Source: Knoellia sp. S7-12 (GTDB lineage: Bacteria; Actinomycetota; Actinomycetes; Actinomycetales; Dermatophilaceae). From it: DNA of 64,000 bases. The DNA is taken from assembly GCF_040518285.1 (NCBI RefSeq), contig NZ_CP155449.1, forward strand, positions 434,001 through 498,000, in the 5' to 3' direction. Below, in pieces: positions 2 through 61,217 of the stretch (position 1 is its first letter; every line of letters starts with the position of its first letter). Both the position numbers and the translations under genes were made by a program. Below the pieces are notes generated by a model. That model ran no database searches, was not told where the DNA came from, and was given only the letters and a program-made list of their open reading frames with translations.

Positions 2-2224
2 ACCGAGGGGGTCTTCTCTGGCTCCGTCGTCGTTGACCACGAGAACCGGTCGGGCTTCGGCACCGCGCAGAATCCGCCGATGGTCGCGATCTACACCAGC
101 GCCTACACCGCGGCGAGTGGGCGCGACGGCATCCAGGCCCAGTCCCTCGCCTACTCCACTGACGACGGGCAGACGTGGACCAAATACTCCGGGAACCCCG
201 TGCTCGACATCGGCTCCCGAGAGTTCCGCGACCCCAAGGTCTTCTGGTACGAGCCCGCGAACGAGTGGCGGATGGTCGCCGTGATCGCCAACGAGCACAA
301 GGTGAACATCTGGCGCTCGGCGAACCTCAAGGACTGGACCCATCTCTCCGACTTCGGCCCGCGCAACGCGACCGGCGGGTTGTGGGAGTGCCCTGACCTC
401 TTCCCCCTCGCCATAGACGGAGACCCTGACAACGTCAAGTGGGTCATGCTCGTGAGCCTCAATCCCGGTGGTATTGCTGGCGGTTCGGGCACCCAGTACT
501 TCGTTGGCGACTTCGACGGCACGACGTTCACACCCGATGGTCCGGCAACCTACGAGCCCCCGAACGGGACCGTGCTGCAGGACTTCGAGGCCGGGTATGC
601 CGGGTGGTCCCCCACTGGGACCGCATTCGGCTCCGCGCCCGTCGCCGGGACGCTTCCGGGTCAGCAGACGGTGACGGGCTTCGAAGGCTCGCACCTCGTC
701 AACAGCTTCGTCGACGCCGACAGCGCGCAGGGCGAGCTCACCTCTCCCTCGTTCACGGTCAATGAGCGCTACCTGAACTTCCTCGTCGGTGGTGGCCGTC
801 ACCCGGCGGTTCCCGGTGCGACACAGGGGGATCCAGGTGGCTCCGTCTTCGCGGACTTCGAGAACCTCGACCCCGCGACGCATCTGCCGACGGGATGGCG
901 GGCGACCGGTGACTTCGTGGGCTACGGAGCGACGCCGTCGGGCCTGCCCAATCATCAGGGCCAGAACGTCCTCGACACGTGCGTGGTGCCCGACAAGTGC
1001 GACCCTGCCGTCGGCACGTTCGAGTCGCCCGAGTTCACCGTGACGCAGAAGTTCGTCAACCTCCTCATCGCCGGTGGGACTCACCCGCTCAGCGCCCCCG
1101 CGCCGACCGTCGTCGAACTCGTCGTCGATGGTCAGGTCGTGGGCTCCGTGACGGGCAACAGCTCGGGTGACATGGACTGGCGCTACATCGACGCCACCGC
1201 AGTGGTCGGCAAGGTGGCCCGCCTCGTCGTCCGGGACGACCGCAGCAGTGGCGACTGGGGCCACCTCATGGTGGACGACATCCGCTTCGGCGACACGGCC
1301 GCCGGACCTCGTGACCGGCAGACGACCGTCAACCTTGTCGTCGACGGCGAGGTCGTGCGCAGTGAGACCGGCAACGACAGCGAGTCCCTCGACTGGGCCT
1401 CCTGGGACCTCGCCGATTTGCAGGGCCAGTCGGCCCAGATCCGCGTCGTCGACCACAACAGCGGTGGTTGGGGACACGTGCTCGCCGACCAGTTCACGCT
1501 CGCTGGCGCGCCGGCGAAGAGTGGCACTGCGCGTGCGTCCTGGGTCGACTACGGCCGGGACAACTACGCGGGAGTGACGTTCAACGGCCTGCCGATGGAC
1601 CAGAGGATCTCCATCAGCTGGATGAACAACTGGCAGTACGCCGGCGACGTCCCCACCGACCCGTGGCGCGGTCAGATGACGATGCCCCGAGAGCTGGCGC
1701 TGGTGTCGACCCCAGACGGTCCGCGTCTGTCGCAGAGCCCGGTCGACGGCATCAATGACATCGCGGTGAGCCGGTCCAAGCAGCAGGTCAAGGCACGTGG
1801 CGTCGTTGCCGGCGAGCGGCCCACGGGTCGCAGCGCCGAGTTGGCGAGAGTCGAGGTCCGCGTGGCCCTGGGCTCGGCCTCCGAGGCTGGCGTCGTCCTG
1901 CGACGCAGTGCTGATGGCGCTGTCGGGACGAAGGTGGGCGTGCGGCGTGACGGCACGCTCGTCGTCGATCGCACGAAGAGTGGGAACGTTGCGTTCAACC
2001 CTCTCTTCCCCAGCGTCGAGGAAGCACCAGTGACGCTCGAGAACGGCGAGGCGACGTTCACGGCATACCTCGATCGCAGTTCGGTCGAGGTGCTCGGTGA
2101 GGCGGGTCAGGTCTCGATCACGGACCTGATCTATCCGCCCGGGTCGGCCACGGGTGTCGGAACCTACGTCGTCGGGGGGCCTGCCAAGGCGATCGACATC
2201 AAGATCACGCCGATGACCCCCTGA
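2..2224 (+). CDS. GH32 levanase/beta-fructosidase, 5' partial
   Basis: The reading frame is open from the left edge, so the signal peptide and the N-terminal WMNDPNG-type nucleophile motif lie outside the window. The GH32 five-bladed propeller shows the RDPKVFW motif (near nt 227) and WECPDLFPL (near nt 382), whose Glu is the general acid/base. The enzyme should release fructose from levan, inulin or sucrose outside the cell. The propeller is interrupted from about nt 570 to 1505 by carbohydrate-binding-like modules, one of which appears nested within another copy. The sequence then returns to GH32 (YGRDNYAGVTFNGLP, then ISWMNNWQYAGDVPT) and a C-terminal beta-sandwich. It is convergent with a LacI gene and sits beside a fructose-type ABC operon, which supports a fructan-use role. 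Exact substrate is not determinable. Confidence 0.93.
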   Translation, partial: TEGVFSGSVVVDHENRSGFGTAQNPPMVAIYTSAYTAASGRDGIQAQSLAYSTDDGQTWTKYSGNPVLDIGSREFRDPKVFWYEPANEWRMVAVIANEHKVNIWRSANLKDWTHLSDFGPRNATGGLWECPDLFPLAIDGDPDNVKWVMLVSLNPGGIAGGSGTQYFVGDFDGTTFTPDGPATYEPPNGTVLQDFEAGYAGWSPTGTAFGSAPVAGTLPGQQTVTGFEGSHLVNSFVDADSAQGELTSPSFTVNERYLNFLVGGGRHPAVPGATQGDPGGSVFADFENLDPATHLPTGWRATGDFVGYGATPSGLPNHQGQNVLDTCVVPDKCDPAVGTFESPEFTVTQKFVNLLIAGGTHPLSAPAPTVVELVVDGQVVGSVTGNSSGDMDWRYIDATAVVGKVARLVVRDDRSSGDWGHLMVDDIRFGDTAAGPRDRQTTVNLVVDGEVVRSETGNDSESLDWASWDLADLQGQSAQIRVVDHNSGGWGHVLADQFTLAGAPAKSGTARASWVDYGRDNYAGVTFNGLPMDQRISISWMNNWQYAGDVPTDPWRGQMTMPRELALVSTPDGPRLSQSPVDGINDIAVSRSKQQVKARGVVAGERPTGRSAELARVEVRVALGSASEAGVVLRRSADGAVGTKVGVRRDGTLVVDRTKSGNVAFNPLFPSVEEAPVTLENGEATFTAYLDRSSVEVLGEAGQVSITDLIYPPGSATGVGTYVVGGPAKAIDIKITPMTP

Positions 2225-2235
2225 CTGGTCCCGAA

Positions 2236-2295
2236 GCATGACCTACCGCACCGTAAGTGGGGTGAGCACCCCACTTACGGTGCGGTGGGTCATGC
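2236..2295. terminator. Long bidirectional hairpin terminator
   Basis: Two 29-nt arms (2236-2264 and 2267-2295) pair with only one G-T mismatch across a 2-nt loop. The hairpin lies between the convergent GH32 and LacI genes and covers the LacI stop codon. There is no long T-tract on either side, which is common for actinobacterial terminators. Confidence 0.8.
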
Positions 2296-3318
2296 GTCAG
2301 GCGGTGGGATCTCGCCGGATCCTCGCACCACCAGCGTCGGTTCCACCACGAGGCGCTTCGGGGCCGCGGTGTCACCGTCGAGGCGTGCCATGAGCAGGTC
2401 CGCGGTGAGCCGGCCGATGCGACCGACGTCCTGGCGGATGACAGTGAGGGCGGGCGCGAGGAGGTCCGCGAGAGGGAAGTCGTCGAACCCCACAAGCGCC
2501 ACCGAGTCACTCAGGCCGCGCTGCCGCAGGGCCCGAACGGCGCCCTGGGTGAGGTCGTTGCGTCCGGCGAAGATGGCCGTCGGCGGCTTGGCGAGCTCCA
2601 TCAGGTGGAGAACCGCTGCCTCGGCGGGCCCGGGTCCGCGCAGCCCCTGGATGCAGAGCTGCTTGTCGGGGCGTATGCCGCGAGCCCGGAACGCCTCGAC
2701 GTAGCCGTCCCGCCGGTCGCGCGCGGTGTAGATCTCGGCGAGGTCGGTGAGGCAGGCGATCCGACGATGCCCCTGTGCGAGGAGGTGTTCGACTCCCATC
2801 TGGGCGCCCTCGAGGTTCTCGACGGTGACCGAGTCGGCGACGACCCCCCGCGGCTCGCGATCGACGAAGACGACGGGCAGACCAGCGCGAACCTCTGACG
2901 CGAGGTAGTCCTGCCGGTCGGTCGAGGGCATGAGCACGAGTCCGTCGACGCGCCGGGTCACAAGGTCGTGGACGAGCGAGCGCTCGCGGTCAGGCTCCTC
3001 GTCGAGGCTCGCGGACAGGATCGCGGTGCCGCGATCCCGGGCGGCGTCCTCGAGAGAACGCAGCAGAGCCGCCGAGAAGCTGTTGCTCACGTCCTGGAGG
3101 AGTGCGCCGATGAGTCCGCTACGGCCACCTCCCCGACGGAGGTTGCTGGCTCCGAGGTGGTGGCGGTAGTCGAGCCGGCTCACCGCGTCCTGCACCCGAC
3201 TGCGGACCGCGTCTGCCACGCCGGCCTCGGCATTGACGACCCGCGAGACGGTCTTGATGCTCACCCCGGCCAGGGCTGCGACATCGCGCATCGTGGCGCG
3301 GCCCGCCTGGTCACTCAT
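2290..3318 (-). CDS. LacI-family transcriptional regulator
   Basis: The protein has about 342 residues. The N-terminal LacI helix-turn-helix reads TMRDVAALAGVSIKTVSRVV and is followed by a periplasmic-binding-protein-like effector domain with the typical VDGLVLMPS and GLPVVFVDREP segments. I chose the ATG at 3318; a GTG two codons upstream is also possible. It is divergent from the frc-like operon and convergent with GH32. Two near-identical 14-bp palindromes lie in the intergenic region, so it probably represses the transport operon and its own gene. The effector is likely fructose or a derivative, by context only. Confidence 0.93.
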   Translation of the reverse strand: MSDQAGRATMRDVAALAGVSIKTVSRVVNAEAGVADAVRSRVQDAVSRLDYRHHLGASNLRRGGGRSGLIGALLQDVSNSFSAALLRSLEDAARDRGTAILSASLDEEPDRERSLVHDLVTRRVDGLVLMPSTDRQDYLASEVRAGLPVVFVDREPRGVVADSVTVENLEGAQMGVEHLLAQGHRRIACLTDLAEIYTARDRRDGYVEAFRARGIRPDKQLCIQGLRGPGPAEAAVLHLMELAKPPTAIFAGRNDLTQGAVRALRQRGLSDSVALVGFDDFPLADLLAPALTVIRQDVGRIGRLTADLLMARLDGDTAAPKRLVVEPTLVVRGSGEIPPPDA

Positions 3319-3343
3319 GGTCACCGGCTCTGCGCGCCGTAGC

Positions 3344-4561: not shown

Positions 4562-5587
4562 ATGAGCACCACCGAGGTCACGTCTGCTTCCGCCGAGTTC
4601 GCTCGGCGGCAGCAGTCGCCCGTCCAACGGCTGCAGCACCAGCTCCACGGCAAGCCGTGGATGAGTCCGCTCTTCCTGCTGCTGGTGTCGTTCCTGGTGT
4701 TCTTCATCCTGACGCCCACCTTCCTCACGGCGAACTCGATGGGCATCCTGCTCCAGCAGACTGCGGTCGTCGCGGCGCTCGCCGTGGGGCAGACCCTGGT
4801 CATCCTCACCGCCGGCATCGACCTCTCGGTCGGCGCGATCATGGTGCTGTCGATGATGGTCATGGCCACCCTGGCCCGTGATGACGGGATGCCCGGCATC
4901 CTCGCGCTGCTCATCGGGGTCGCCCTCGCGACCGGCGCAGGAATGCTCAACGGGCTGCTCGTCACCCGGATCAACCTGCCGCCGTTCATCGTCACCCTCG
5001 GCACGCTGAGCATCTTCACGGCCATCGCCCTGCTCTACTCGGGCGGCTCGAGCATCCAGGCAGACCGAATGCCCGACACCCTCAACTTCCTCGGCGAAGG
5101 GTTCGGCATCGGTCAATTCCGCCTCACCTGGGGCATCGTCGTGGTGATCCTCCTCTATGCAGTCATCGGCTTCGTCCTGTCCCAGACCGCCTGGGGGCGA
5201 TACGTGTATGCCGTCGGCGACGATGCCGAGTCGGCTCGCCTCTCCGGTGTGCCGAGCATGCGAATCCTCCTCGGTGTCTACACCGTGGCCGGACTCATCT
5301 ATGGCATCGCGGCCTGGATCCTCATCGGTCGGGCCGGAGCGGCAACGCCCAACGCCGCTCCTGACGCCAACCTCGCGAGCATCACTGCGGTCGTCATCGG
5401 CGGGACGAGCCTCTTCGGTGGACGTGGCCGGCTGATCGGCACGCTCATCGGTGCGCTCATCGTGCAGACGTTCGCGTTCGGACTGTCCCAGATGGGCGTC
5501 GACCAGCAGTGGCGCGTCCTCGCCACCGGCGTCCTCGTCATCGTGGCGGTCGCCATCGACCAGTGGATCAGGAAGGTGAAGGCATGA
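4562..5587 (+). CDS. frcC: Sugar ABC transporter permease (FrcC-like)
   Basis: An inner-membrane permease of about 341 residues in the ribose/xylose/fructose (BPD_transp_2) family, with around ten hydrophobic segments. Family motifs include VGQTLVILTAGIDLSVGAI and, near the end, VVIGGTSLFGGRGRLIGTLI, the ATPase-contact loop region. A GTG overlapping the frcB stop (4556) is an alternative start; ATG 4562 is preferred. Its stop overlaps the next start as ATGA, indicating translational coupling in one operon. Confidence 0.92.
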   Translation: MSTTEVTSASAEFARRQQSPVQRLQHQLHGKPWMSPLFLLLVSFLVFFILTPTFLTANSMGILLQQTAVVAALAVGQTLVILTAGIDLSVGAIMVLSMMVMATLARDDGMPGILALLIGVALATGAGMLNGLLVTRINLPPFIVTLGTLSIFTAIALLYSGGSSIQADRMPDTLNFLGEGFGIGQFRLTWGIVVVILLYAVIGFVLSQTAWGRYVYAVGDDAESARLSGVPSMRILLGVYTVAGLIYGIAAWILIGRAGAATPNAAPDANLASITAVVIGGTSLFGGRGRLIGTLIGALIVQTFAFGLSQMGVDQQWRVLATGVLVIVAVAIDQWIRKVKA

Positions 5588-8617: not shown

Positions 8618-9154
8618 TCAGAACAGGCGCGACTCGGCGGCCTCGGGAGGTTCCTCCAGCGCAAGGAGGCGGGCCTTGCGATCCAGCCCACCGGCATACC
8701 CGGTCAGTGAACCGTCGGAACCGATCACTCGGTGACACGGGATGAGAATGCTGACCGGGTTGTGTCCGACGGCCTGGCCGACCCGCTGCGCCAGCCCCGG
8801 GTTGCCGAGCTCGCGTGCGATCGCGCCGTAGGTCGTCGTGGTGCCATAGGCGATCGTCACGAGGAGGTCCCAGACCCGCTCCGAGAAGGCGTCCCCGTGT
8901 GTCGCCGTCGGGACGGTGAAGGTCGTCCGCTCGCCGCGGAAGTACTCCGCCAGCTCGCGCGTCGTGACCTCGAAGACGGCATCGCCCGTCGGCGAAACCT
9001 GGAGGCCGATCGCGTCGACCGCCGGTGGGTGCCAGTGGACGGGGAAGTAGAGGCCGGCGAGGGCGTCCCCTTCAGCGACGGCAAGGAGGTCGCCCATGTC
9101 CGTTGTGAGGGTGGCGTGGCGTCGGGGGAGTTGGGTCGTCGTCATGATGCCCAT
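8618..9154 (-). CDS. ogt: Methylated-DNA--protein-cysteine methyltransferase
   Basis: A 178-residue suicide DNA-repair protein that moves alkyl groups from O6-alkylguanine to its own Cys. The signature IPCHRVIGSDG is intact, with acceptor Cys near residue 140, and is preceded by TTYGAIARELGNPGLAQRVG, the recognition-helix region. It lacks the Ada regulatory domain, so it is Ogt-like. Starts at 9154 and 9145 are both ATG; neither has a clear ribosome binding site. Confidence 0.93.
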   Translation of the reverse strand: MGIMTTTQLPRRHATLTTDMGDLLAVAEGDALAGLYFPVHWHPPAVDAIGLQVSPTGDAVFEVTTRELAEYFRGERTTFTVPTATHGDAFSERVWDLLVTIAYGTTTTYGAIARELGNPGLAQRVGQAVGHNPVSILIPCHRVIGSDGSLTGYAGGLDRKARLLALEEPPEAAESRLF

Positions 9155-9683: not shown

Positions 9684-10259
9684 ATGACCTTCACTCCGCC
9701 GACCCCCGGTGAGCCGCAACGCGCGCCTTCGGCACCGATGCCGTATGCCGCCCACTCGCCTGCGGTGGCCGGACCGCCCGGGTCGGGCCAACCAGTGTCT
9801 CCACCGACGCCCCCGCAGGGCTCCCCCGGCCACGCCAGGGCACGCCCATCCTGGGTTGCCTGGACGGCGCTCGGACTCAGCGCCCTGTCGTTCCTCATCG
9901 CGACGAGCATCGGGATCATCTATGCCGCGCACTCGCTCTCCGGGACCGAAGGATCGCAAGGATCGGAAGGAGAGGGTCTCTACTACGACGCAGGGATGCC
10001 GTCGTGGGGATCGGTTGACCTGAGCGCGACCGGCCAAGCGGAGAAGAGGAGCCTGACCGACAGTGTCGAAGAAGCGCTGAAGCAGGGGATCGAGGACTTC
10101 GACGGCAACGCTGACGACATCTCGAATGTCTCCTGCGAGGGGCTGGCTCCCAAGAAGGACTCGGTGGCGACCTGCTCAGTCACGGTTCAGGACTATGACT
10201 CGACGGTCGTGCTGTTCTTCCTCGATGACGACGGCGGGTATCTCGCCACGTTGTACTGA
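9684..10259 (+). CDS. Proline-rich membrane protein with DUF4333-like tail
   Basis: 191 residues: a Pro-rich cytoplasmic N-terminus (residues 1-55), one membrane helix (WTALGLSALSFLIATSIGII) and an extracytoplasmic C-terminal part. The SCEGLAPKKDSVATCSV segment with its Cys pair resembles DUF4333-type domains of actinobacterial envelope proteins. CAGGAG precedes the ATG. The last 84 nt overlap the 3' end of the convergent glycosyltransferase gene. Function unknown. Confidence 0.75.
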   Translation: MTFTPPTPGEPQRAPSAPMPYAAHSPAVAGPPGSGQPVSPPTPPQGSPGHARARPSWVAWTALGLSALSFLIATSIGIIYAAHSLSGTEGSQGSEGEGLYYDAGMPSWGSVDLSATGQAEKRSLTDSVEEALKQGIEDFDGNADDISNVSCEGLAPKKDSVATCSVTVQDYDSTVVLFFLDDDGGYLATLY

Positions 10260-11456
10260 CATCGGCGCCCGCGACTGCGTCGTCGACTGCTCGGGCACTG
10301 CGGGTGGTGCGAAGATCCATGTCCGCATGAGAACGAACTTCACCGCCGTCGACAGGGCCGTTGTCACTCCTACGGCCCCGGTCTCGACCCACGTCGGGGC
10401 GCCGGGGGCGACCGCGTGCAGCAGCCCCAGCCCTGCCGACGTGAACGCCAGCGTGATCAGGAAGACGACGAGTGCCTGCAGTTGCTGTCGCCCGGCACCT
10501 TCGCGCCCGCGCAGCCCGAAGGTCCAGTGCCGGTTCCACGAGGTGTTGGCGATCGTGGCCACGAGCAGGGCGATGGCGTTGGCGAGCGTCGCCGACGCCA
10601 TCCCTTGGCGCAGGAGTGCGAAGAGCCCGAGGTGGAACACGGTCGACACGACGCCGATCACCAGGAAGCTGACGGCCTGACGCGCGACGTGACCACTCGG
10701 CATACGCCGGCCCATGCGTTCCGCGATCGCGAAGACGTGCGGGGACGACGCCGAGAGGGTGCGACGCATCCGCCACACGCCGCGCAGGTCGTCACGTGCG
10801 GTGCTGATGACGTCGACGCGGCTGTCGGGGTCGTCGTACCAGTCGACCGGAACCTCGTGGATGCGCAGCTGGGCGCGCTCGGCGAGGACGAGGAGTTCGG
10901 TGTCGAAGAACCACGTCGTGTCCTGGACGAGGGGGAGGAGCTCGCCTGCCACGTCGCCACGGATTGCCTTGAAGCCGCACTGGGCGTCCGTGAATCGCGC
11001 GCCGAGGGCCCCGCGCAGGACGAGGTTGTAGCAGCGTGAGATGACTTCGCGCTGGGCTCCGCGCACGACTCGGGAACCGCGGGCCAGGCGGGACCCGATG
11101 GCGACGTCCGAGTGCCCCGACATGAGCGGCGCGACGAGCGGCCACAGGGCATCGAGGTCGGTCGACAGGTCGACGTCCATGTAGGCGAGGACCAGCGCGT
11201 CCGAACCCAGCCACACCTGCTTGAGGGCACGGCCCCGACCCTTCTCGGCCAGGTGGACGGCGCGCACTCCGGGCAGCTCACCGGTGAGGGCCTGTGCCGT
11301 CGCCCACGTCGCGTCGGTGCTCGCGTTGTCGGCGACGGTGATCCGGAACGGGTACGGGAACGTCGCCACCAGGTGGGCGTGGAGTCGGCGGACGCACGCC
11401 CCGACGGTGGCCTGCTCGTTGTGGACGGGGACGACGACATCGAGGACGGTGGTCAT
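10176..11456 (-). CDS. GT2 glycosyltransferase fused to GtrA-like membrane domain
   Basis: 426 residues. Residues 1-240 form a GT2 domain of the dolichyl-phosphate-glucose/mannose synthase type: VVPVHNEQATVGACVRRL, the Asp motif YMDVDLSTDLDAL and acceptor region DAQCGFKAIRGD. Residues about 265-395 form a four-helix GtrA-like domain (FLVIGVVSTVFHLGLFALL, IANTSWNRHWTFG). It likely makes polyprenyl-phosphate sugar and helps flip it. The start overlaps the upstream GT39 stop (ATGA), so the two are coupled: this enzyme would supply the donor for GT39. Confidence 0.92.
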   Translation of the reverse strand: MTTVLDVVVPVHNEQATVGACVRRLHAHLVATFPYPFRITVADNASTDATWATAQALTGELPGVRAVHLAEKGRGRALKQVWLGSDALVLAYMDVDLSTDLDALWPLVAPLMSGHSDVAIGSRLARGSRVVRGAQREVISRCYNLVLRGALGARFTDAQCGFKAIRGDVAGELLPLVQDTTWFFDTELLVLAERAQLRIHEVPVDWYDDPDSRVDVISTARDDLRGVWRMRRTLSASSPHVFAIAERMGRRMPSGHVARQAVSFLVIGVVSTVFHLGLFALLRQGMASATLANAIALLVATIANTSWNRHWTFGLRGREGAGRQQLQALVVFLITLAFTSAGLGLLHAVAPGAPTWVETGAVGVTTALSTAVKFVLMRTWIFAPPAVPEQSTTQSRAPMSVQRGEIPAVVIEEEQHDRRVIVLNRD

Positions 11457-13549
11457 ACGGTCGACTCCGTGGTCGAGGACGTGCTGTCCGTCGTCGTGGT
11501 GGCTCCCACGGGCTTCGTGAGGTCATAGAACGTCGAACCATCGATCGTGACGCTCGTGAAGTTGGCCTGGACCCAGGTGGAGATCTCGGAGGCCGTGCCC
11601 GTTCCACCCACGCCCCCGCCACGCATGCCGCCGCCGGTGCCGCTGGACGCGAAGTAGTGGATGAGGCCCTGGTCGACGTAGTCCTGGAACTGAGCCAGCG
11701 TCGGGCTCGGGTCGGACCCGTTGAACCCACCGATCGCCATGACGGGCAGACCGGAGCCGAGCTGGAGTCCCGCAGCGGTCTGCGACCCGACGGCGGCCGC
11801 GACCCAGCGATAGCTGCTCGCGCCCTCGGACAGGGCGGCGACGACCTCGGTGCTCGGGGTGCTGGCGTCCAGGAGTCCGCCCATGCCGCCGCCTCCTTGC
11901 GGTGCGGTCCCGCCACCTTGGGGTGCGGTCCCGCCACCTTGGGGTGCGGCGCCACCGCCGGGCATGGTCGGCATGGTGCCGCCCCGTGGCATTCCGCCGC
12001 CTCCCGGGCCGCCCATCCCGCCGGTGCTGGGTCCCGCGGTGACGATCGAGCCGGTGTAGGTCGTGTTCACGGTCGTGATGCTGTATGCCGTGGGGCCGGC
12101 GAGCGCTGCGATGAGGGCGGCTGCGATGACGGCCGGGACCGCGCGTCGGTGCAGCCGGTCGAGGGCGAGGAAGCCGAGAGCGGCGGTGATTCCCAGGGCA
12201 AGGACGAGCACGCGCAGCCAGTCTCCGTATGCCGTGGTCCGGCTCAGCAGGACGAAGCTCCAGATCGCTGCGGCGAGAGTTGCGGCGGACAGCGTTCCGA
12301 CGCCGAGCCAGGACTCGCGGCGCTCCCACGCCTCGGCCGATCCCATGCCGACCAGTGCGGCGACGGCGGGTGCGAGGGCGACGGTGTAGTACTCGTGGAA
12401 GATGCCGGCCATGAGCGAGAAGATCAGGATCGTAACGGTGAGCCAGCCGCCCCACACGATGTAGCCCGCCCGGCGCACGTCGGTGCGAGGAGCCCGGCCG
12501 CGCAGCCAGAGGCCCACGGCGAGCAGGATGAGTGCGCTGGGGATGAGCCACGAGATCTGGCCGCCGATGCTGCTGCTGAACATGCGTCCGAGTCCCGTTG
12601 AGCCCCAGCCGTTCCCGCCACCGACGGAGCCGGTCTCGTTGCCGTTGATCCGGCCGAGTCCGTTGTAGCCGAAGGTCAGCTCCAGGAACGAGTTGGTCTG
12701 GCTGCCACCGATGTAGGGGCGCATGCTCGCCGGGACGAGCTCGACGATGGCCACCCACCACCCGGCGGAGAGCAGCATTGCGCCGACGCCCGCAGCCGCC
12801 CCGATGATCCGGCGCCGCAACGTGGTGTCGGCTGCGACAAGGTAGGCGATGCCGAAGAACGGCACGACGAGGAGGACCTGCAGGGTCTTGGTGAGGAAGC
12901 CGAGGCCGATGAAGACGCCGGCGAGGGCCATCCAGCGGGCGGAGCCGCGCTCGATGGACCGCATGGTCGCCCAGGCGCCAAGCGCCATGAGGAGGACGAG
13001 CAGTGCGTCGGGGTTGTTGAAGCGGAACATGAGCACGGCGACCGGAGTGAGCGCCATGACCGTGCCGGCGATGAGCCCAGCGGCTGCACCCCACCAGCGG
13101 CGCACGCTCGTGAAGACGACCCCGACGGTCGCGACACCCATGAGCACCTGGGGGAAGAGGATCGCGAACGAGCTCAGCCCGAAGAGCCGGACGCTGAGCG
13201 CCATGACCCACAGTGCCGCAGGCGGCTTGTCGACGGTGATCGAGTTCCCGGCGTCGGATGACCCGTAGAAGAAGGCCTTCCAGGACTCGCTACCGGCCTG
13301 GACGGCGGCCGAGTAGAAGCTGTTGGCCCAGCCGTTGCTCGTGAGCCCGTAGGTGTAGAACGCCGCGGTGACGGCCAACAACACCAGCAGCGCGGGCCGG
13401 GCCCACGTGGGGTCCTCGGCGTTCCCACGGATGAACCGTTGGAGGCGGGAGGTCCGGGCGGCCGACTCGTCCGGTGCGCTCACGCGCTCCTCGGTCGGTG
13501 GACTGGCGGTCGCGGCAGCAGGGCCGGGGGAGAAGGTCATCGCGTTCAT
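11453..13549 (-). CDS. GT39/ArnT-like membrane glycosyltransferase
   Basis: About 698 residues with 10 or more membrane helices. The family signature GNSITVDKPPAALWVMAL contains the first-loop Asp used by polyprenyl-P-sugar transferases, and RFNNPDALLVLLMALGAW matches the family. A Gly-rich, repetitive extracytoplasmic stretch (GGMGGPGGGG then APQGGGT repeats) precedes a C-terminal soluble domain. It should move a sugar from polyprenyl phosphate to an exported acceptor. ATG 13549 is preferred; a GTG at 13603 is possible. It is coupled to the GT2-GtrA gene and near a two-component system. Confidence 0.88.
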   Translation of the reverse strand: MNAMTFSPGPAAATASPPTEERVSAPDESAARTSRLQRFIRGNAEDPTWARPALLVLLAVTAAFYTYGLTSNGWANSFYSAAVQAGSESWKAFFYGSSDAGNSITVDKPPAALWVMALSVRLFGLSSFAILFPQVLMGVATVGVVFTSVRRWWGAAAGLIAGTVMALTPVAVLMFRFNNPDALLVLLMALGAWATMRSIERGSARWMALAGVFIGLGFLTKTLQVLLVVPFFGIAYLVAADTTLRRRIIGAAAGVGAMLLSAGWWVAIVELVPASMRPYIGGSQTNSFLELTFGYNGLGRINGNETGSVGGGNGWGSTGLGRMFSSSIGGQISWLIPSALILLAVGLWLRGRAPRTDVRRAGYIVWGGWLTVTILIFSLMAGIFHEYYTVALAPAVAALVGMGSAEAWERRESWLGVGTLSAATLAAAIWSFVLLSRTTAYGDWLRVLVLALGITAALGFLALDRLHRRAVPAVIAAALIAALAGPTAYSITTVNTTYTGSIVTAGPSTGGMGGPGGGGMPRGGTMPTMPGGGAAPQGGGTAPQGGGTAPQGGGGMGGLLDASTPSTEVVAALSEGASSYRWVAAAVGSQTAAGLQLGSGLPVMAIGGFNGSDPSPTLAQFQDYVDQGLIHYFASSGTGGGMRGGGVGGTGTASEISTWVQANFTSVTIDGSTFYDLTKPVGATTTTDSTSSTTESTV
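11895..11957. repeat. Three tandem 21-bp repeats inside the GT39 gene
   Basis: Units start at 11895, 11916 and 11937, the last diverging at its end. They encode APQGGGT copies in the Gly-rich loop and preserve frame. Copy number could vary between strains. Confidence 0.85.
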
Positions 13550-13700: not shown

Positions 13701-15131
13701 TCAGGCGGGGAGGGCGACGGTGAAGGTCGTCTGGCCCGGGCGGCTGTCGAGCTCGACCCGACCACCGTGCGACTTTGCGACCGCGTCGACGATCGACAGC
13801 CCCAATCCGGTTGACCCACTCGCTCGGGTGCGAGCCTCGTCCCCACGCGTGAACCGTTCAAAGACGCTCTCCTGCAACGTCTCTGGCACACCTGGACCAT
13901 CGTCGGCCACCGTCAGCTTCACCCAGTCGGCGTCCCGTCGAAGCGACGTGACGACCCTCGTCCCGGCGGGGGTGTGCGTGCGGGCGTTGGCCAACAGGTT
14001 GGCCAGGACCTGATGCAGTCGTGCCTGGTCACCGTCCACCTCGACCGGCTCGTCGGGCAGGTCGAGCTCCCACTGATGACCGGGCGCCGCCGCGTGCGCG
14101 TCGGAGACCGCATCCATCGCCAGGAGGGAGAGGTCGACGGTCACGCTGTCGAGAGGCCGACCCGCATCGAGCCGGGCCAGCAGAAGCAGGTCCTCGACAA
14201 GGCCCTGCATCCGAAGCGCCTCTGACTCGACCCGGGTCAACGCGTGGGTGACCGATGCGGGAACCGGCTCGCGCTCGCGACGGGACAGCTCGGCATACCC
14301 GCGAATGGACGCCAACGGCGTCCGCAGCTCGTGGGACGCATCTGCGACGAACTGGCGCACCTGCGTCTCTGACTTGTGCCGCGCCTTGAGGGCGCCCTCG
14401 ACGTTGTCGAGCATGCTGTTGAGCGCGACGCCGACCTGGCCGACCTCGGTGCGCGGGTCCGTGTCCGCCGCAGGCACCCGCTGAGCGAGCGCGACGTCGC
14501 CGGAGTCGAGCTCGAGACGGCTGACCTGGGTTGCGGTGTGCGCCACCCGTTGGAGGGGTGCGAGCCCGCGCCGGATGAGCCACTGGCCGCCGATGGCCAC
14601 GAGGGCCAGACCCACGAGGGTCGTGCCGACGACGAGAGCGATGATGGCGTCGACGATCCGGCTGATGCCGCTCATCGGCAGGCCCGAGATGACTGTGTTG
14701 CCGCCGGCGCCGCGCGCCGAGGCGACGCGGTACTCGCCCAGGCCCTCGACCTCGACCGTCTTGGGGGTCGCGCCGATGCTGGCGTCCTGCAAGGTGTCGA
14801 CCTGTGCCGTGGTGAGCTCGCCGATCGTCCGGCCGTACTCGACCTGGTTGCGCACGACATCGCCGTCGCGCAGCACGAGGAGGAGGGACTCGCCCCCGCC
14901 GCCGGGGATGGGGCCTCCGCCGCCAACGGGGCCGCGTGGGCCGCCTGCCCGAAAGAGGGACGCCGTGACGTCCTGGTCGATCTGGTTGACGAGGTGGTTC
15001 TGCAGGGCGAAGACGGTGAACGCCGACGTGGCCGCCGTGATGACGAGGAACAGACCCACGACCGCGGCGACGAGCTTGGTCGTCAGCGACCAGCCGCTGG
15101 GGTCGAACCAGGAACGCGGGGCCTCGCTCAT
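13701..15131 (-). CDS. Two-component sensor histidine kinase
   Basis: 476 residues. The first membrane helix (LVAAVVGLFLVITAATSAF) is followed by an extracellular sensor region of about 125 residues with a GGGGPIPGGGG loop. A second helix, HAMP, HisKA with ADASHELRTP (phosphorylated His near residue 267), and an HATPase domain with LANLLANARTHT, DDGPGVP and GSTGLGLSIV follow. The ATG overlaps the regulator stop (ATGA). The stimulus is unknown; the Gly-rich loop echoes Gly-rich stretches in neighbouring GT39 and in the small protein at 16046. Confidence 0.94.
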   Translation of the reverse strand: MSEAPRSWFDPSGWSLTTKLVAAVVGLFLVITAATSAFTVFALQNHLVNQIDQDVTASLFRAGGPRGPVGGGGPIPGGGGESLLLVLRDGDVVRNQVEYGRTIGELTTAQVDTLQDASIGATPKTVEVEGLGEYRVASARGAGGNTVISGLPMSGISRIVDAIIALVVGTTLVGLALVAIGGQWLIRRGLAPLQRVAHTATQVSRLELDSGDVALAQRVPAADTDPRTEVGQVGVALNSMLDNVEGALKARHKSETQVRQFVADASHELRTPLASIRGYAELSRREREPVPASVTHALTRVESEALRMQGLVEDLLLLARLDAGRPLDSVTVDLSLLAMDAVSDAHAAAPGHQWELDLPDEPVEVDGDQARLHQVLANLLANARTHTPAGTRVVTSLRRDADWVKLTVADDGPGVPETLQESVFERFTRGDEARTRASGSTGLGLSIVDAVAKSHGGRVELDSRPGQTTFTVALPA

Positions 15132-15862: not shown

Positions 15863-16045
15863 GACACCCAGTAGACCGTCATGTCTTCAGTGTTCCCCAT
15901 GCGTTGCCTGTGCGAATCCTGTGAGGTGTCAACGACCCACGAGGGCGTATGCCGTGTGGTCCCGTCCGCGCTCCCTGTCCTTCAGACATCCTGGCCACAT
16001 GCCCACCACAGGCTCTGCACAGGCTTGCCCGCCACGGTCGCTCCC

Positions 16046-20688: not shown

Positions 20689-21909
<1,221 letters not shown>

Positions 21910-40779: not shown

Positions 40780-40927
40780 GAATGCTGAGTATGCCGTCGG
40801 GCTGCCATCGCATTACCAAAAGCACTGTGGCAGTTGCCTTTTCGAACCGGTCGAGGCGCCCTGACGTGGTGCTGGGCACCGTTAGGGCATGGCCGCGCGG
40901 ATGAGGTGCGTGCGGCTTCGGTGTCGG

Positions 40928-45103: not shown

Positions 45104-45847
45104 ATGTCGCAACCCAGCCAGGACACAGCGCCGCTCGCACACCAGGCGGACCCGATGTCAGGCCCACGGCCACGGCTCCTCGTCTTCGACGTCAATGAGA
45201 CCTTGTCCGACATGTGCAGCATGGCTGACCGGTTCGCCGACATCGGCGCCCCGCCCTTCTTGGCAGCCGCCTGGTTCGCAGCCGTGTTGCGAGACGGCTT
45301 CGCCCTGACCGTCAACGGCGCAAACCCCGACTTCGCAGACCTCGCGCGAGCCGGGCTCGCGGCGGCATTGGCTACCCAGCCGGTCGAACACCTCGACGAC
45401 GCCGTCGACCAGCTCATGACGGCGTTCGCGTCCCTGCCCGCCCACAGCGACGTTGTCGAAGGAATCGCCGACCTCGCCGCTACCGGCGTCCGTCTGGTCA
45501 CGTTCAGCAACGGTTCGGCCGCCATCGCCGAAGGACTCCTGCAACGAAACGGAATCGACCACCACTTCGAGCGTCTGCTGTCCGTGCAGGACGCCCCGGC
45601 CTGGAAACCTGCCGAGTCGGCATACCAATATGCGCTCAACGTGTGCGACGTGGACGCTACGGACGCGCTGCTGGTCGCGGTCCACCCCTGGGACCTGCAC
45701 GGCGCCAAGGCGGCGGGGCTCACGACGGCATACCTGAATCGCAAGGGCGCCACCTATCCCAACTACTTCAGCCGCCCGGACATTGAGGTTGGTTCCCTGG
45801 CGCAACTTGCTGAACTGCTCACCGCCGCTGAGAGGTCGCCGGACTGA
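45104..45847 (+). CDS. HAD-superfamily hydrolase, haloacid dehalogenase type II-like
   Basis: 247 residues. Nucleophile motif LLVFDVNETLSDM, motif II LVTFSNGSAAIAEGLL, Lys in APAWKPAESAYQYA and motif III LLVAVHPWDLHGAKAAGL. Type II L-2-haloacid dehalogenases have this arrangement, but phosphatase activity is equally possible. AAAGGAC precedes ATG 45104. Confidence 0.88.
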   Translation: MSQPSQDTAPLAHQADPMSGPRPRLLVFDVNETLSDMCSMADRFADIGAPPFLAAAWFAAVLRDGFALTVNGANPDFADLARAGLAAALATQPVEHLDDAVDQLMTAFASLPAHSDVVEGIADLAATGVRLVTFSNGSAAIAEGLLQRNGIDHHFERLLSVQDAPAWKPAESAYQYALNVCDVDATDALLVAVHPWDLHGAKAAGLTTAYLNRKGATYPNYFSRPDIEVGSLAQLAELLTAAERSPD

Positions 45848-48681: not shown

Positions 48682-48813
48682 GGTGCTCCTTCGCATTGGG
48701 GTCATGACCCGGTGGGGCCGGTTGTCGACGTTACGCGAGCTGACGGCCGTGTAGGGCCCAAGAGGGCACCTGACCTGCAGAGATGCGCAGATACGTCCGG
48801 TGACGACACGGCA

Positions 48814-48819
48814 TACGCT
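48814..48819 (+). promoter_or_regulatory. -10 element of a leaderless aldo/keto reductase mRNA
   Basis: TACGCT lies 6 nt before the ATG and no Shine-Dalgarno site is present. The element is part of CGGCATACGCT, which recurs at the same distance before the gene at 57792. Confidence 0.55.
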
Positions 48820-49925: not shown

Positions 49926-50765
49926 ATGCGGCTCTCGGACGCGCACGTCCTCCTCACCGGCGCGACCGGGACGATCGGCACGGCCCTCGCGCGTCGGTTG
50001 ACCGAGCGGGGTGCCCGGCTGACCCTGCTCGCCCGCGCCCCTGACCCGCTGCACGCTCTTGCCCGTTCGACTGGTGGTGTTGCCTTCCCGGCAGACCTCT
50101 GCGATCCGGATGCCCTGCGAGGGCTCGTGGACCGGGTCGAGGAGGGGCAGGGCCCTGTCGACGTCCTCGTCAACAACGCGGCGGCTGACACTGCCGGGTT
50201 TCTCACCGACCTGACGGCCGAAGACCTCCGTCGCACCATCGACCTCAACCTCACCGCGCCCATGGAGCTGTGCCGTCAGGTGCTCCCGGGCATGCTCTCG
50301 CGCGGCAGCGGTCACCTCGTCAACATCTCCTCCCTGGCCGGGGTGGCGACCTTCCCGGGACTCGCCCTGTATGGCGGGACCAAGGCTGGCCTGACCCACG
50401 CGACCTCGGGTCTGCGTGCGGACCTGCGGGGCACACCGGTCGGCACCCTGACTGCCGAGATCGGGCCGGTCGCCTCCGAGATGATGAATCGCATCGGTCG
50501 CCACGGGCCCAGCGAGGCCTCCTTCGACCGGGTGCTGCGCGCCCGCCTCCTCAGCCTGCTCGAACCGGACGACGTCGCCGTCGGGATCGTCGCTGCCATT
50601 GAGCAGGGCCGCCCCCACCTGCGCCTCCCCAGGCGCGCAGCGCCGATCGCGGCGGTGACGGGAATCCCTCGCGCGCTCGCCCGGATCGCGCTCTCCGGCA
50701 TACCGACTCGTCCCGCCCCGCAGCGACCCGAGACGCAGCGACCCGAGACGCGGTCGGCCCGATGA
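49926..50765 (+). CDS. Short-chain dehydrogenase/reductase
   Basis: 279 residues. Cofactor motif VLLTGATGTIGTALA, VLVNNAAAD, catalytic Ser in LVNISSLAG and Tyr-Lys in YGGTKAGLTH. The C-terminus adds an Ala/Arg-rich tail with a short 15-bp DNA repeat (PQRPETQRPET). The start is probably leaderless or weakly led. It overlaps the next ORF by ATGA, so they form one unit. Confidence 0.9.
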   Translation: MRLSDAHVLLTGATGTIGTALARRLTERGARLTLLARAPDPLHALARSTGGVAFPADLCDPDALRGLVDRVEEGQGPVDVLVNNAAADTAGFLTDLTAEDLRRTIDLNLTAPMELCRQVLPGMLSRGSGHLVNISSLAGVATFPGLALYGGTKAGLTHATSGLRADLRGTPVGTLTAEIGPVASEMMNRIGRHGPSEASFDRVLRARLLSLLEPDDVAVGIVAAIEQGRPHLRLPRRAAPIAAVTGIPRALARIALSGIPTRPAPQRPETQRPETRSAR

Positions 50766-56591: not shown

Positions 56592-57461
56592 TTGCTGAAC
56601 TCGACGCTGCTCATGTCGTCGGCGCACTATTTCGGCAACGACCACAAGCTCAACCCCTATTACCAGGACGGCGCGACCGTCGACACGGCCAAGGCCGAGG
56701 TCGAGCACAACGGCATCAAGGATGCGTTGCACCGCGCAGGCGCCGAGATCGTCACCGTCGAAGCGCCCCCGACGAGCCAGGACGGCGTCTACACCGCCAA
56801 CTGGGCGCTCGTTCGCGGTGGCCGCGCGCTCATGGCGACGCTCCCACCCTCACGCCAGAGCGAGGAGGCGTGGGCGCGCACTCAGCTCACCGAGCTCGGC
56901 TACCAGATCGACGACCTGCCGCAGCCGTGGCGCTTCAGCGGACAGGGCGACGCCCTGATCTGTGGTGACCTCGTGTTCTGCGGAGCCGGCTATCGCTCCG
57001 ACGAAGAAGCCTTGGCGTATGCCGCCCAGCACTTCGGTCTCGAACGTATCCAGTTGCAGACCCTCCCGCAGCTCGACGACGCCGGCCAGCCGGTCGTCAA
57101 CGTCGTGAGCGGCTGGCCCGACAGTTACTGGTACGACATCGACCTCACGCTTTCCGTTCTGCGCGAACCCGATTCGGCCGGTCGCGGCCTCATCGCCTAC
57201 TGCCCGGAGGCGTTCACGCCCGAGAGTCGTGAGCTGCTCGCGAAGCTCGACGTCGTCGACAAGATCGAGATCTCCGAGGCCGAGGCGCGGACGTCGTTCG
57301 CGTGCAACCTCGTGTCCACGGGTTCAACGGTCGTCATGAGCGACAACGCACCGCAGTTGCGGGCAGACGTTGAGAGTGCCGGCCTGTCGGTCATCACCCC
57401 GCACGTCGACGAGCTCGCCAAGGGCGGCGGCTACATCCGCTGCACGTCTCTCTGGATCTGA
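56592..57461 (+). CDS. ADI/DDAH-superfamily (amidinotransferase-fold) protein
   Basis: 289 residues. I chose TTG 56592 because GGAG lies 8 nt upstream and family members begin before SSAHYFGNDHKLNPYY; the first ATG (56613) would clip the first strand. Superfamily features: DGVYTANWALV, GQGDALICGDLVFCG and the C-terminal Cys in GGGYIRCTSLW, the position of the nucleophile in DDAH/arginine deiminase. The usual catalytic His before the central Asp is not evident (SYWYDIDLTLSVL). Substrate unknown. Confidence 0.82.
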   Translation: MLNSTLLMSSAHYFGNDHKLNPYYQDGATVDTAKAEVEHNGIKDALHRAGAEIVTVEAPPTSQDGVYTANWALVRGGRALMATLPPSRQSEEAWARTQLTELGYQIDDLPQPWRFSGQGDALICGDLVFCGAGYRSDEEALAYAAQHFGLERIQLQTLPQLDDAGQPVVNVVSGWPDSYWYDIDLTLSVLREPDSAGRGLIAYCPEAFTPESRELLAKLDVVDKIEISEAEARTSFACNLVSTGSTVVMSDNAPQLRADVESAGLSVITPHVDELAKGGGYIRCTSLWI

Positions 57462-57704: not shown

Positions 57705-57779
57705 GACGGCAAGCGTATGCGGGGCGTCTTCGACGTGGGAGGAGCGTGAGGTGCCCCATGGCGAAGCCAAAGAACGGCA

Positions 57780-57785
57780 TACGCT
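57780..57785 (+). promoter_or_regulatory. -10 element of a leaderless mRNA
   Basis: TACGCT, 6 nt before ATG 57792, inside CGGCATACGCT. Same arrangement as at 48814. Confidence 0.55.
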
Positions 57786-58591: not shown

Positions 58592-59917
58592 ATGGCGACC
58601 ACGCCGACCTCCCTCGCAGACCGGGGCCAGCGCCTCGGTCTGCGCCTCATCTCCAAGGCCGGCGGACTCCCCGTCATGGCCGACCCCAAGGTGCGTGGCC
58701 GAGTGGAGAAGCTCCTCAATCGCGGCGCCCACTCCGGGTTCAAGGCCCAGGTCGCTGTCGGCCGCGCGTTCAAGAGGTCCAAGGGCTCCGGTTCCGCCAC
58801 CCGCCCGGCGACGGCGAAGCGCAGCGGTGTCTTCGACCTCACGCCGACCGAAGACCAGCAGATGCTCCAGCAGGCCGCCAGCGAGCTCGCCGACGACGTG
58901 ATCCGGCCCGCCGGGTCCCGCGCCGACTCCGAGCGAGCCGTGCCCGACGAGGTCCGCGCCGCCATGCAGGAGATGGGGCTCGCGCTCGTGGGCGTGCCCG
59001 AGGAGCTCGGTGGCATCGCCGAGGAGCGTTCGGCCGTCGCCGGCGTCCTCGTCCTCGAGCAGCTCGCCCGCGGCGACATGGGCATCGCCGTCTCGCAGAT
59101 GGCCACCGCTGCCGTCGCGACGGCGCTCGCTCTCTATGGCGACGCAGACCAGCAGGCGACCTACCTGCCGCACTTCACCGGTAATGTGCCGGTGGTCGCC
59201 GCGGCGTTCGCGCTCCAGGAGCCGCAGCCGCTCTTCGACCCGTTCGCGCTGACGACCACCGCTGTCGCACAGGGCGATTCGCTCGTCGTCAACGGCACCA
59301 AGGCCATCGTGGCCAACGCCGACAAGGCCGAGATCTTCATCATCTCGGCGATGGTCGACGGCGAGGCCCGCCTCATCGTCATCGAGTCCGCGACCGACGG
59401 CATCACCATCGAGGACGACCCGGCGATGGGGGTGCGTGCAGCCCACACCGGCCGCGCCATCTTCACCGACGTCACCGTCCCCAGGACCAACCTGCTCGGG
59501 ACCGCCGACGACCACCGCGACGCGGTCCGCCGTGCGCGCATCGCCTGGGCCGCCGCCGCCTGTGGCACCGCCAGGGCCGTTCTCGACCAGGTCATCACCT
59601 ACGCCCAGGAGCGCAAGGCGTTCGGCGAGCCGATCGGCCAGCGCCAGGCCGTCGCCTTCATGATCTCCGACATCGCCGTCGAGCTCGACGGACTCCGCCT
59701 CGTGACGCTCAAGGCGGCCGCCCGCCTCGACGCCGACACCGACGTCGCCCAGATCGCCGCCGAGGCACGCTCGCTCACCGCGACGTATGCCGCGCAGATC
59801 GGCTCGCACGCCGTGCAGCTGCTCGGCGGGCACGGCTTCGTCAAGGATTTCGACAACGAACGTTGGTACCGCGACCTCCGTGGAGCGGGTGTCCTCGAGG
59901 GCACCCTGCTCGTCTGA
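58592..59917 (+). CDS. Acyl-CoA dehydrogenase family protein
   Basis: 441 residues; an 80-residue basic N-terminal extension (RGQRLGLRLISKAGGLPVMA) precedes the fold. ACAD features include RKAFGEPIGQRQAVAFMISD, QLLGGHGFVKDFDNERWYRD and VEGTLL-type end. The FAD-loop SGSD/GSD motif is weak (FALQEPQPLFDPFALTTTA). GAAGGGA precedes ATG 58592. Forms a pair with the next gene, perhaps a heteromeric enzyme. Confidence 0.88.
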   Translation: MATTPTSLADRGQRLGLRLISKAGGLPVMADPKVRGRVEKLLNRGAHSGFKAQVAVGRAFKRSKGSGSATRPATAKRSGVFDLTPTEDQQMLQQAASELADDVIRPAGSRADSERAVPDEVRAAMQEMGLALVGVPEELGGIAEERSAVAGVLVLEQLARGDMGIAVSQMATAAVATALALYGDADQQATYLPHFTGNVPVVAAAFALQEPQPLFDPFALTTTAVAQGDSLVVNGTKAIVANADKAEIFIISAMVDGEARLIVIESATDGITIEDDPAMGVRAAHTGRAIFTDVTVPRTNLLGTADDHRDAVRRARIAWAAAACGTARAVLDQVITYAQERKAFGEPIGQRQAVAFMISDIAVELDGLRLVTLKAAARLDADTDVAQIAAEARSLTATYAAQIGSHAVQLLGGHGFVKDFDNERWYRDLRGAGVLEGTLLV

Positions 59918-59960
59918 CCCGGCATACCCCCATTCCCAGGCTCACCTGAAGGGCATCGTT

Positions 59961-61217
59961 GTGATTGACCTTGAAGTTCCCCGGAAGTTCCGCCCGCTCG
60001 TCGAGCAGGCCCGCGGCATGGCCGAAGAGGTCTTTCGGCCCATCTCCCGCAAGTACGACCTCGCCGAGCACGAGTACCCCCGCGAGCTCGACCTCATCTC
60101 CGCCGTCATCGACGGCATGGGCTCCTCGGGCGCCGGCCAGGGTGCAGGGGCGTCGAACACCACCCGCGCCACCGACGACCAGGAAGGGGTCGTCGCGGCT
60201 GTCGGCTCGGGTCGCAACACCCGTGAGGACAAGCGGGTCAAGAACGGCTCCAACCTCTCCTCCGTGCTCTCGATCCTCGAGACCTGCCGCGGTGACGTCG
60301 GGCTCACCCTCTCCATCCCGCGCCAAGGACTGGGCAACGCGGCCATCGCGGCCGTCGCCAACGAAGAACAAAAGGCGAGGTATGCCGGTCAGTGGGCCGC
60401 CATGGCCATCACCGAGCCCGAGACCGGCTCGGACTCCGGCGCCATCCGGACGACCGCCGTCAAGGACGGTGACGAGTACGTCCTCAATGGCGAGAAGATC
60501 TATGTCACCTCCGGTGAGCGCGCCGAGCTCGTCGTCGTCTGGGCGACACTCGACCGGAGCCTGGGCAAGCAGGCCATCAAGTCGTTCGTCGTGCGCCGCG
60601 ACAATCCGGGGATGAAGCTCGTCCGGCTCGAGCACAAGCTGGGCATCCGCGCCTCCGACACGGCCGCCTTCCACCTCGACGACTGCCGCGTCCCGGCCGA
60701 GGACCTGCTCGGCGACCCGGAGATCAAGACCGCGGGCGGCTTCGGCGGCGCGATGCAGACCTTCGACAACACCCGCCCGCTCGTCGCGGCCATGGCCCTG
60801 GGTCTGACCCGCGCCTGCCTCGACACGACCACCGAGCTGCTCGAGAAGGCGGGCGTCACGGTCGACTGGGACAAGCCGGCATACACACAGTGCGCCGCGG
60901 CAGCGAAGCTGCTGCAGATGGAGGCCGACTACGAAGCCGCGCACGCGCTCACTCTGCGTGCCGCCTGGATGGCCGACAACGGCAAGCCGAACTCGATGGA
61001 AGCCTCTATGGCCAAGGCGAAGGCGGGGCGCACGTGCGTCAATGTCGCTCTCGCCTGCGTCGAGCTCGCGGGCGCGACTGGCTACAGCGAGCGCGATCTC
61101 CTCGAGAAGTGGGCGCGCGACTCCAAGATCCTCGACATCTTTGAGGGCACCCAGCAGATTCAGCTGCTCGTCATCGCCCGTCGCCTGCTCGGGATGAGCT
61201 CGAGCCAGCTCAAGTAG
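59961..61217 (+). CDS. Acyl-CoA dehydrogenase
   Basis: 418 residues from GTG 59961 (GAAGGG 7 nt before). Canonical motifs: MAITEPETGSDSGAIRTTA, KLGIRASDTAAFHLDDCRVP, ATGYSERDLLEKWARDSKIL and FEGTQQIQLLVIARRLLG. It follows its partner by 43 nt, so the two are probably cotranscribed. Acts on a longer or modified acyl-CoA; specificity unknown. Confidence 0.93.
   Translation: MIDLEVPRKFRPLVEQARGMAEEVFRPISRKYDLAEHEYPRELDLISAVIDGMGSSGAGQGAGASNTTRATDDQEGVVAAVGSGRNTREDKRVKNGSNLSSVLSILETCRGDVGLTLSIPRQGLGNAAIAAVANEEQKARYAGQWAAMAITEPETGSDSGAIRTTAVKDGDEYVLNGEKIYVTSGERAELVVVWATLDRSLGKQAIKSFVVRRDNPGMKLVRLEHKLGIRASDTAAFHLDDCRVPAEDLLGDPEIKTAGGFGGAMQTFDNTRPLVAAMALGLTRACLDTTTELLEKAGVTVDWDKPAYTQCAAAAKLLQMEADYEAAHALTLRAAWMADNGKPNSMEASMAKAKAGRTCVNVALACVELAGATGYSERDLLEKWARDSKILDIFEGTQQIQLLVIARRLLGMSSSQLK

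Follow-up and report, generated by a model that had tools for sequence, protein, structure and literature searches.

A non-palindromic octamer with strand-wise spacing in Knoellia sp. S7-12 and related Dermatophilaceae: a possible directional self-DNA signal

The chromosome of Knoellia sp. S7-12 (Actinomycetota, Dermatophilaceae) contains a stretch of 64,000 nucleotides (contig NZ_CP155449.1, bases 434001-498000; hereafter the window), which raises the question why a single word of eight letters, GTATGCCG with its reverse complement CGGCATAC, is repeated there so often in both orientations, and what kind of reader it may serve. The genome holding the window, designated G000 among the genomes (G) and genera (g) compared here, is a single contig of 4.16 Mb with dnaA at base 1. 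A preliminary description of the window had claimed at least 35 copies where only a few would be expected, and about equal numbers in the two orientations. The recount gave 36 copies, 17 of GTATGCCG and 19 of CGGCATAC, of which 35 lie in the range surveyed by that description and one (at 595) outside it, against 1.6 expected from an order-2 Markov model, under which the word is the top 8-mer of the window by z. The word differs from its own reverse complement and is, therefore, non-palindromic. The whole genome contains 2,805 copies (1406 on one strand, 1399 on the other), while the reversed word, serving as the composition control in the genome-wide counts, occurs 79 times (33 and 46); thus, both claims were borne out at the two scales. 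In a sample of 462 kb, composed of 21 stretches spread around the chromosome, 307 copies were counted against 13.8 by a third-order model, which is about 22-fold and far from the background, and the word ranked first among the 8-mers with at least 20 copies. The density is one site per 1-1.4 kb. Our tentative preference is for a directional self-DNA signal, similar to the DNA uptake sequences (DUS) but read strand by strand, and the spacing of the copies is the evidence from which this reading starts.

The spacing supplies a quantitative clue to the mechanism, namely a reading direction and a length scale of about 1.2 kb. Neighbouring sites alternate in orientation in 203 of the 287 pairs of the 462-kb first sample, while the alternation of 22 other frequent 8-mers, taken as the control, was at most 0.55. 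The same was found for 405 of 591 pairs in a larger sample of G000 (858 kb, z 9.0) and for 294 of 456 pairs in G033 (460 kb, z 6.2), a genome with the core GGATGCCG, and the effect persisted after removal of the pairs closer than 60 bp (355/519 and 254/403, respectively). The neighbours alternate because an exclusion acts within one orientation, over about 1.2 kb: in G000 the same-orientation pairs less than 1,250 bp apart numbered 128 where 265.2 were expected, and in G033 171 where 285.2 were, whereas the opposite pairs at 60-1,250 bp agreed with the expected numbers (277 against 260.8 in G000, 258 against 273.7 in G033). The opposite pairs closer than 60 bp were in excess (36 against 13.0 in G000, 23 against 13.7 in G033), and 28 of these 36 close inverted pairs in G000 were intergenic and capable of forming hairpins. 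A reader that is locally satisfied by one site of a given orientation, and indifferent to sites of the opposite one, must be directional or act on single strands. No replication polarity was found in the 858 kb sampled, with forward and reverse copies at 81 and 83 in the first chromosome half and 214 and 232 in the second, so that the strand-skew check advised in the preliminary description returned balanced strands.

The distribution of the word was surveyed in 149 genomes of Dermatophilaceae from 53 genera, taken from a larger group and some of them incomplete. At least 900 copies of GTATGCCG/CGGCATAC were counted in 78 genomes (30 genera), fewer than 400 in 67, and intermediate numbers in four; the ratio to the reversed word in the 78 genomes had a median of 10.3 and a range of 2.5-50.5, some of these excesses being weak. 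The word or its one-letter variant marks 32 of the 53 genera, that is, the 30 genera together with g17 and g26, which carry GGATGCCG. This dialect is found in g17, g26 and g65, in seven genomes with 2,099 to 4,480 copies, and the g65 genomes (G076, G110, G133, G147) are enriched in both GTATGCCG and GGATGCCG in differing proportions (1217 of the former and 2195 of the latter in G076, 361 and 4480 in G133), as though the genus were in the course of changing its dialect. Further dialects are suggested by small samples, namely GTATG[AC]CG (G011, G034) and GAATGCCG (G020). The copy numbers in the g25 genomes (1062, 19 and 3681) and in g56 (1251-1660, but 37 in one genome) indicate apparent losses within genera. 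Outside the family, 22 genomes from 19 further families in the order were at background, with 2-167 copies and at most 3.6 times the reversed control, and in ten genomes of ten other families, sampled at 40 kb each, no word attained the level of G000 and G033 at that sample size, which is 31-55 copies and an excess of roughly 20-fold or higher.

Several candidate dialects were rejected. GTACGCCG, seen in 40-60 kb of G030 and G031, was abandoned as the words of these genomes lack clear alternation (in G030, 11/27 for GTACGCCG and 11/18 for TACGCCGA; in G031, 20/37 for CGTACGCC); CGTAGCCGA left the top lists of G009 with more sequence, that genome having a 3.5-fold excess of GGATGCCG without alternation (37/76); and CATTGCCG of G026 dropped with more sequence to 21 copies against 5.7, with the alternation of 6/14. 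Apart from this, the samples of the other families contained short words of high ratio, such as AAGAAGGC in G039 (17 against 0.3) and GTAGTTGA in G046 (9 against 0.1), and in three sampled stretches of G023 (L047, L048 and L073) 17 of 19 copies lie within the longer context AGCGGCATAC.

The exclusion was followed through the family by counting sites separated by 250-280 bp. All 78 genomes that reach 900 copies entered the count, the other 71 being left out for their few pairs; the expectations use rounded genome sizes, and the genomes within a genus have sites in common. The same-orientation pairs numbered 793 against 1,624 expected and the convergent pairs 1,131 against 812, and the same-orientation ratio was the lower of the two in 29 of the 30 genera. 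The exceptions to exclusion are g12, which lacks it (153 against 142.6), and g27, with little of it (66 against 79.1), while the pair numbers of g18 (8 against 7.3) and g13 (6 against 4.4) are too small to judge. The counts on the two strands also agree more closely than by chance: with F and R as the copies on the forward and reverse strands, the mean of (F-R)^2/(F+R) over the 78 genomes was 0.56 (P 5.5e-4), the reversed word giving 1.14. This agreement is partial, being 0.69 (P 0.10) with one genome per genus and 0.73 on average in the few-copy genomes, and the value exceeds 1 in three of the seven GGATGCCG genomes (1.75 in G096, 3.53 in G024 and 8.43 in G110).

The position of the copies relative to genes was assessed in the 858 kb of G000 with 750 genes from a simple caller of our own, which makes the coding and intergenic splits approximate. 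The coding copies numbered 420 against 30.9 after synonymous-codon shuffling, with all six frames enriched, and the intergenic copies 185 against 3.0 expected. The frames that force rare codons are enriched as well, 48 of the 99 ATA codons falling in the motif. The preliminary description had held that codon preference alone could not explain the copies and had named Tyr-Ala and Ala-Tyr codon pairs as the explanation to be excluded; Tyr-Ala is indeed the commonest coding frame (199 of the 420 coding copies), but the six-frame enrichment and the intergenic excess make codon preference insufficient. The density per kb is 1.38 in intergenic against 0.58 in coding DNA of G000, and 2.23 against 0.83 in G033.

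The octamer appears to be the core of a longer site. In the 185 intergenic copies of G000 the favoured letters are A (-10, -8, -7), G (-1; +12, 0.62), T (+9, 0.53; +19, 0.42) and C (+15). The 120 intergenic copies of G033 share with them A at -7, G at +12, G/C at +13 and T at +19, and differ in G over T at +9 and a stronger C at 0. Within coding DNA, T at +19 has a frequency of 0.36 against 0.10 at other Tyr-Ala pairs. The consensus is weak, and these flank preferences have the look of a protein site some 30 bp long, not of a lone octamer. An interspersed repeat (repetitive extragenic palindrome or transposon) was rejected as a source, the copies having weak preferences only and no long common flanks. 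The sites are also held in place: at the ComEC locus, the G000 sites were compared 80 times with the orthologous positions of eight relatives at 78-85% identity, which are not mutually independent, and an identical site was present 63 times, while the control 8-mers of equal A+T number were identical in 21-35% in the same relatives. The conservation in related genomes, which the preliminary description had proposed to examine, was thus found at this locus; across genera, a minority of positions is common and most differ. As a side observation, the core GTATGCCG with T at +9 contains ATGCCGT, the start of the 12-letter uptake sequence of Neisseria; the match is probably accidental, since the two cases differ in host and in pilus system.

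The preliminary description had suggested a methylation, nucleoid-protein or chromosome-organisation site. A site read by a protein would be expected to occur genome-wide, beyond codon preference and held in place, as was found, but an organisation of the chromosome in the manner of FtsK-orienting polar sequences (KOPS) is disfavoured by the missing replication polarity. A directional uptake or recombination signal, not listed in that description, is suggested by the orientation-specific exclusion, the lineage dialects and the losses within genera, and its uptake type by the equal strands, the lack of polarity, the intergenic excess, the hairpin pairs, the long consensus and, again, the dialects and losses. 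We infer, with the tentativeness stated at the outset, a protein reader, natural transformation as the process and drive as the cause. GTATGCCG would be the core of a non-palindromic signal of about 30 bp that marks DNA as the lineage's own, a putative protein would read the site in one direction, and the DNA bearing it would be favoured for uptake or recombination in natural transformation, as with a DUS. The sites may accumulate by molecular drive and then be retained; a second site of the same orientation on one piece of about 1 kb would add nothing, while a site of opposite orientation would serve the other strand.

The motif resembles the DUS of Neisseriaceae and the uptake signal sequences (USS) of Pasteurellaceae in its thousands of copies on both strands in about equal numbers, the non-palindromic word, the intergenic enrichment, the inverted hairpin pairs, the extended flanks, the lineage dialects and the losses. 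Inverted pairs forming hairpins are described for USS and DUS in two reports (PMC7811141, PMC3630211). In contrast to these systems, the host is actinobacterial and mostly without the type IVa pilus marker, and the motif has a strong same-orientation exclusion over about 1.2 kb, which is at most weaker in the Neisseria-type control. That control retained 74 of 120 stretches after removal of near-duplicates (718 kb, 539 sites), probably from phage-rich contigs. At 60-1,000 bp it gave 143 same-orientation pairs against 171 and 176 opposite pairs against 202, without an orientation-specific effect of the size seen in Knoellia; with close pairs dropped, the same-orientation pairs were 53 against 73.6 and the opposite ones 85 against 83.5, a milder same-direction effect, and the alternation was 147/260. 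The contrast with the spacing of DUS is, accordingly, a matter of strength. The USS control, for which 10 of 15 stretches were retained, contained 54 sites, too few for comparison.

A number of observations weigh against the self-DNA signal. We know of no uptake sequence in Gram-positive bacteria. The core is strict, its 24 one-letter neighbours totalling 331 copies against 317 expected (an expectation itself inflated by the motif), whereas drive would predict an excess of single-mismatch neighbours. Nine other genera, sampled at 14-60 kb each, gave a pooled alternation of 107/190, and G024, of the GGATGCCG dialect, 27/50 in a small sample. The Neisseria-type DUS shows no exclusion of such strength, and DNA uptake by H. 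influenzae is reported to be independent of orientation (PMC1939737). The machinery gives no discrimination either. In a gene-presence panel of 58 genomes, in which 13 genera carry the motif, ComEC and a TadE-domain protein were each found in 57; the genes for both occur in motif-free genera too and, therefore, do not track the motif. PilM, the type IVa pilus marker, was absent from the nine Knoellia genomes searched and from 26 of the 28 family genera of the panel, which makes a ComP-like receptor unlikely, no search for ComP itself having been made. The type IVa pilus was, therefore, rejected as the reader system for its absence from most of the family, and ComEC, TadE and the nucleases of the PDDEXK_1 family (AdnAB), all near-universal, as discriminating readers, their presence being uninformative. 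The presence of ComEC and TadE nevertheless counts in favour of uptake: the ComEC gene of G000 adjoins a ComEA-type HHH/SLBB gene, and in the actinobacterium Micrococcus luteus, transformation is carried by Flp/Tad pili together with ComEA/ComEC (PMC6370729). The closest named relatives of the G000 ComEC gene are from Janibacter sp. HTCC2649 and Knoellia species at 75-88% identity.

A close rival, which we regard as possible though doubtful, is a recombination signal of the Chi type, in which AdnAB or another end-resecting helicase-nuclease would enter from a double-strand break and switch on meeting the site in one orientation; two-ended breaks would need both orientations, and each strand would be spaced independently. 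The strand-wise exclusion follows without extra assumptions from such a one-way reader with a high probability of acting and matches this explanation more directly than uptake. The motif has in common with Chi, the signal of RecBCD and AddAB, the over-represented non-palindromic octamer, the one-letter variants between lineages and, as proposed here, the direction-dependent reader, the octamers and their variants being reported for Chi in PMC8022716. Two adjacent long frames of G000, of 1,051 and 1,133 aa, carry nuclease domains of the PDDEXK_1 type and may be taken for AdnAB; such nucleases, however, occur in 57 of the 58 panel genomes with or without the motif. Chi of E. coli, examined in 500 kb of K-12 as a small sample, is polar (92 sites, 17 and 75 by strand) and free of exclusion (14 same-orientation pairs below 1,250 bp against 14.2 expected), while the motif is unpolarised, excludes strand-wise and stands about 22-fold above the order-3 model. 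A consensus of about 30 bp is also long for Chi, and the large differences within genera are odd for a repair signal.

RecC was rejected as the reader: it was found in none of the nine Knoellia genomes and in 18 of the 58 panel genomes, sporadically and without a match to the presence of the motif. The exclusion, however, appears to track its absence. At 250-280 bp, the three RecC-bearing motif genera of the panel (g12, g25, g27) lacked exclusion, with 57 same-orientation pairs against 54.0, and the ten RecC-less ones excluded as a group, with 213 against 469.6. A one-sided rank test with the genus as the unit gave P 0.024, post hoc and from few genera. The RecC-bearing genomes taken singly gave 40 against 39.5 (G019), 5 against 3.6 (G032) and 12 against 10.9 (G034), respectively, although the genus of G032 does show exclusion through another genome. 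On the other side, the RecC-less g13 and g18 are also without exclusion, on the few pairs given above. The relation hints at break resection over uptake and is, in this respect, a further point against the self-DNA signal; if it holds, the exclusion is tied to the resection of broken ends, and the apparent dependence on RecBCD would be the first handle on the reader.

The motif should not be filed in either of these families, as the orientation-independent spacing of DUS and the polarity of Chi both fail to fit it. We consider it possible, again tentatively, that it represents a third class, an actinobacterial, dialect-forming site that would be read on single strands, each strand of the pieces of about 1 kb being selected or driven to carry one copy. 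To our knowledge, uptake sequences have been described in two Gram-negative families only, and no Chi in Actinobacteria. In the open-access literature, searched by titles and the beginnings of abstracts, no report of uptake sequences, Chi or over-represented words was found for the family or for Actinobacteria, and none of GTATGCCG/CGGCATAC as a genomic motif among the 13 papers that contain GTATGCCG and 20 of the 58 that contain CGGCATAC. If a third class exists, it would be, as far as we know, the first sequence-based recognition of self-DNA in Gram-positive bacteria. An exclusion of such strength is absent from both textbook signals compared, Chi and the Neisseria-type DUS. The family-wide signal, with the dialect change in g65 and the apparent losses in g25 and g56, makes the question why genomes collect words testable in cultivable soil bacteria.

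Among the other explanations, a strand mark is unlikely: the asymmetric site would be modified on one strand, for example, by methylation, to tell the strands or self-DNA apart, and would be needed on each strand every 2-3 kb. It would account for the independent spacing of the strands and the strict core letters, and the dialects could track changes of the modifying enzyme; however, no methylation site with a genome-wide enrichment of more than 20-fold is known to us. A site for a nucleoid protein or for chromosome organisation, bound directionally, such as a loop or SMC boundary element, seems quite improbable, since it would suit the genome-wide occurrence, the regularity on each strand and a consensus of about 30 bp resembling a footprint, but not the lack of polarity relative to the origin, the absence of regularity between opposite sites beyond 60 bp, or the copy number varying up to six-fold in g53 (625 to 3986), which is ill-suited to architecture. 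KOPS and the architecture-imparting sequences are genome-wide non-palindromic octamers as well but polarised from the origin to the terminus, unlike the motif. HIP1 of cyanobacteria is likewise a single octamer in great excess across coding and intergenic DNA; it is, however, palindromic and thus without orientation, in contrast to the motif. An origin in codon usage, composition or repeats without any reader can practically be dismissed, for all that Tyr-Ala is the commonest coding frame, given the six-frame enrichment after shuffling, the rare ATA codons, the intergenic copies, the weak and unrepeated flanks and the orientation-specific exclusion.

As to the individual copies in the window, designated (+) for GTATGCCG and (-) for CGGCATAC on the forward strand, the intergenic ones lie at 9743..9750 (+), 15947..15954 (+), 25887..25894 (+), 25959..25966 (-), which faces the preceding copy, 29210..29217 (-), 32981..32988 (-), 40789..40796 (+), 48809..48816 (-) and 57775..57782 (-), while those at 31415..31422 (+) and 59920..59927 (-) are intergenic or barely intragenic by the choice of start. 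The preliminary description had named nine intergenic examples (15947, 25959, 29210, 31415, 32981, 40789, 48809, 57775 and 59920). All nine carry the motif and eight are intergenic or nearly so by the simple gene caller; the claim for 31415 and 59920 hinges on where the adjacent genes are taken to start, as longer frames exist. The remaining forward copies are at 595..602, 2673..2680, 5206..5213, 12083..12090, 12227..12234, 18094..18101, 20540..20547, 28239..28246, 43423..43430, 57017..57024, 59785..59792 and 60380..60387, and the remaining reverse ones at 2061..2068, 8692..8699, 10698..10705, 14291..14298, 16427..16434, 17771..17778, 17982..17989, 21669..21676, 30195..30202, 45618..45625, 45726..45733, 50696..50703 and 60877..60884.

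The motif had been proposed to supply the -10 element of a leaderless gene in two cases. The copies at 48809 and 57775 were found at -17 of a start codon, where they run into TACGCT, which may serve as the -10 of the genes with starts at 48826 and 57792, respectively. In G000, CGGCATAC stands at -18 to -16 of the start codon in 11 of the 750 called genes, which forms a local peak (3, 7 and 1 at -18, -17 and -16, respectively), and the service as a promoter -10 of leaderless genes is apparently a secondary use of the motif.

The longest motif-free gap of the window, of 7.8 kb (33056-40788), falls between the copies at 32981 and 40789, begins with a tRNA-Arg gene, after which comes a gene for a tyrosine integrase, and is possibly an acquired element. 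Elsewhere on the chromosome, the lowest number among the 21 sampled stretches, 3 copies in 20 kb, was counted in bases 832001-852000 (L013).

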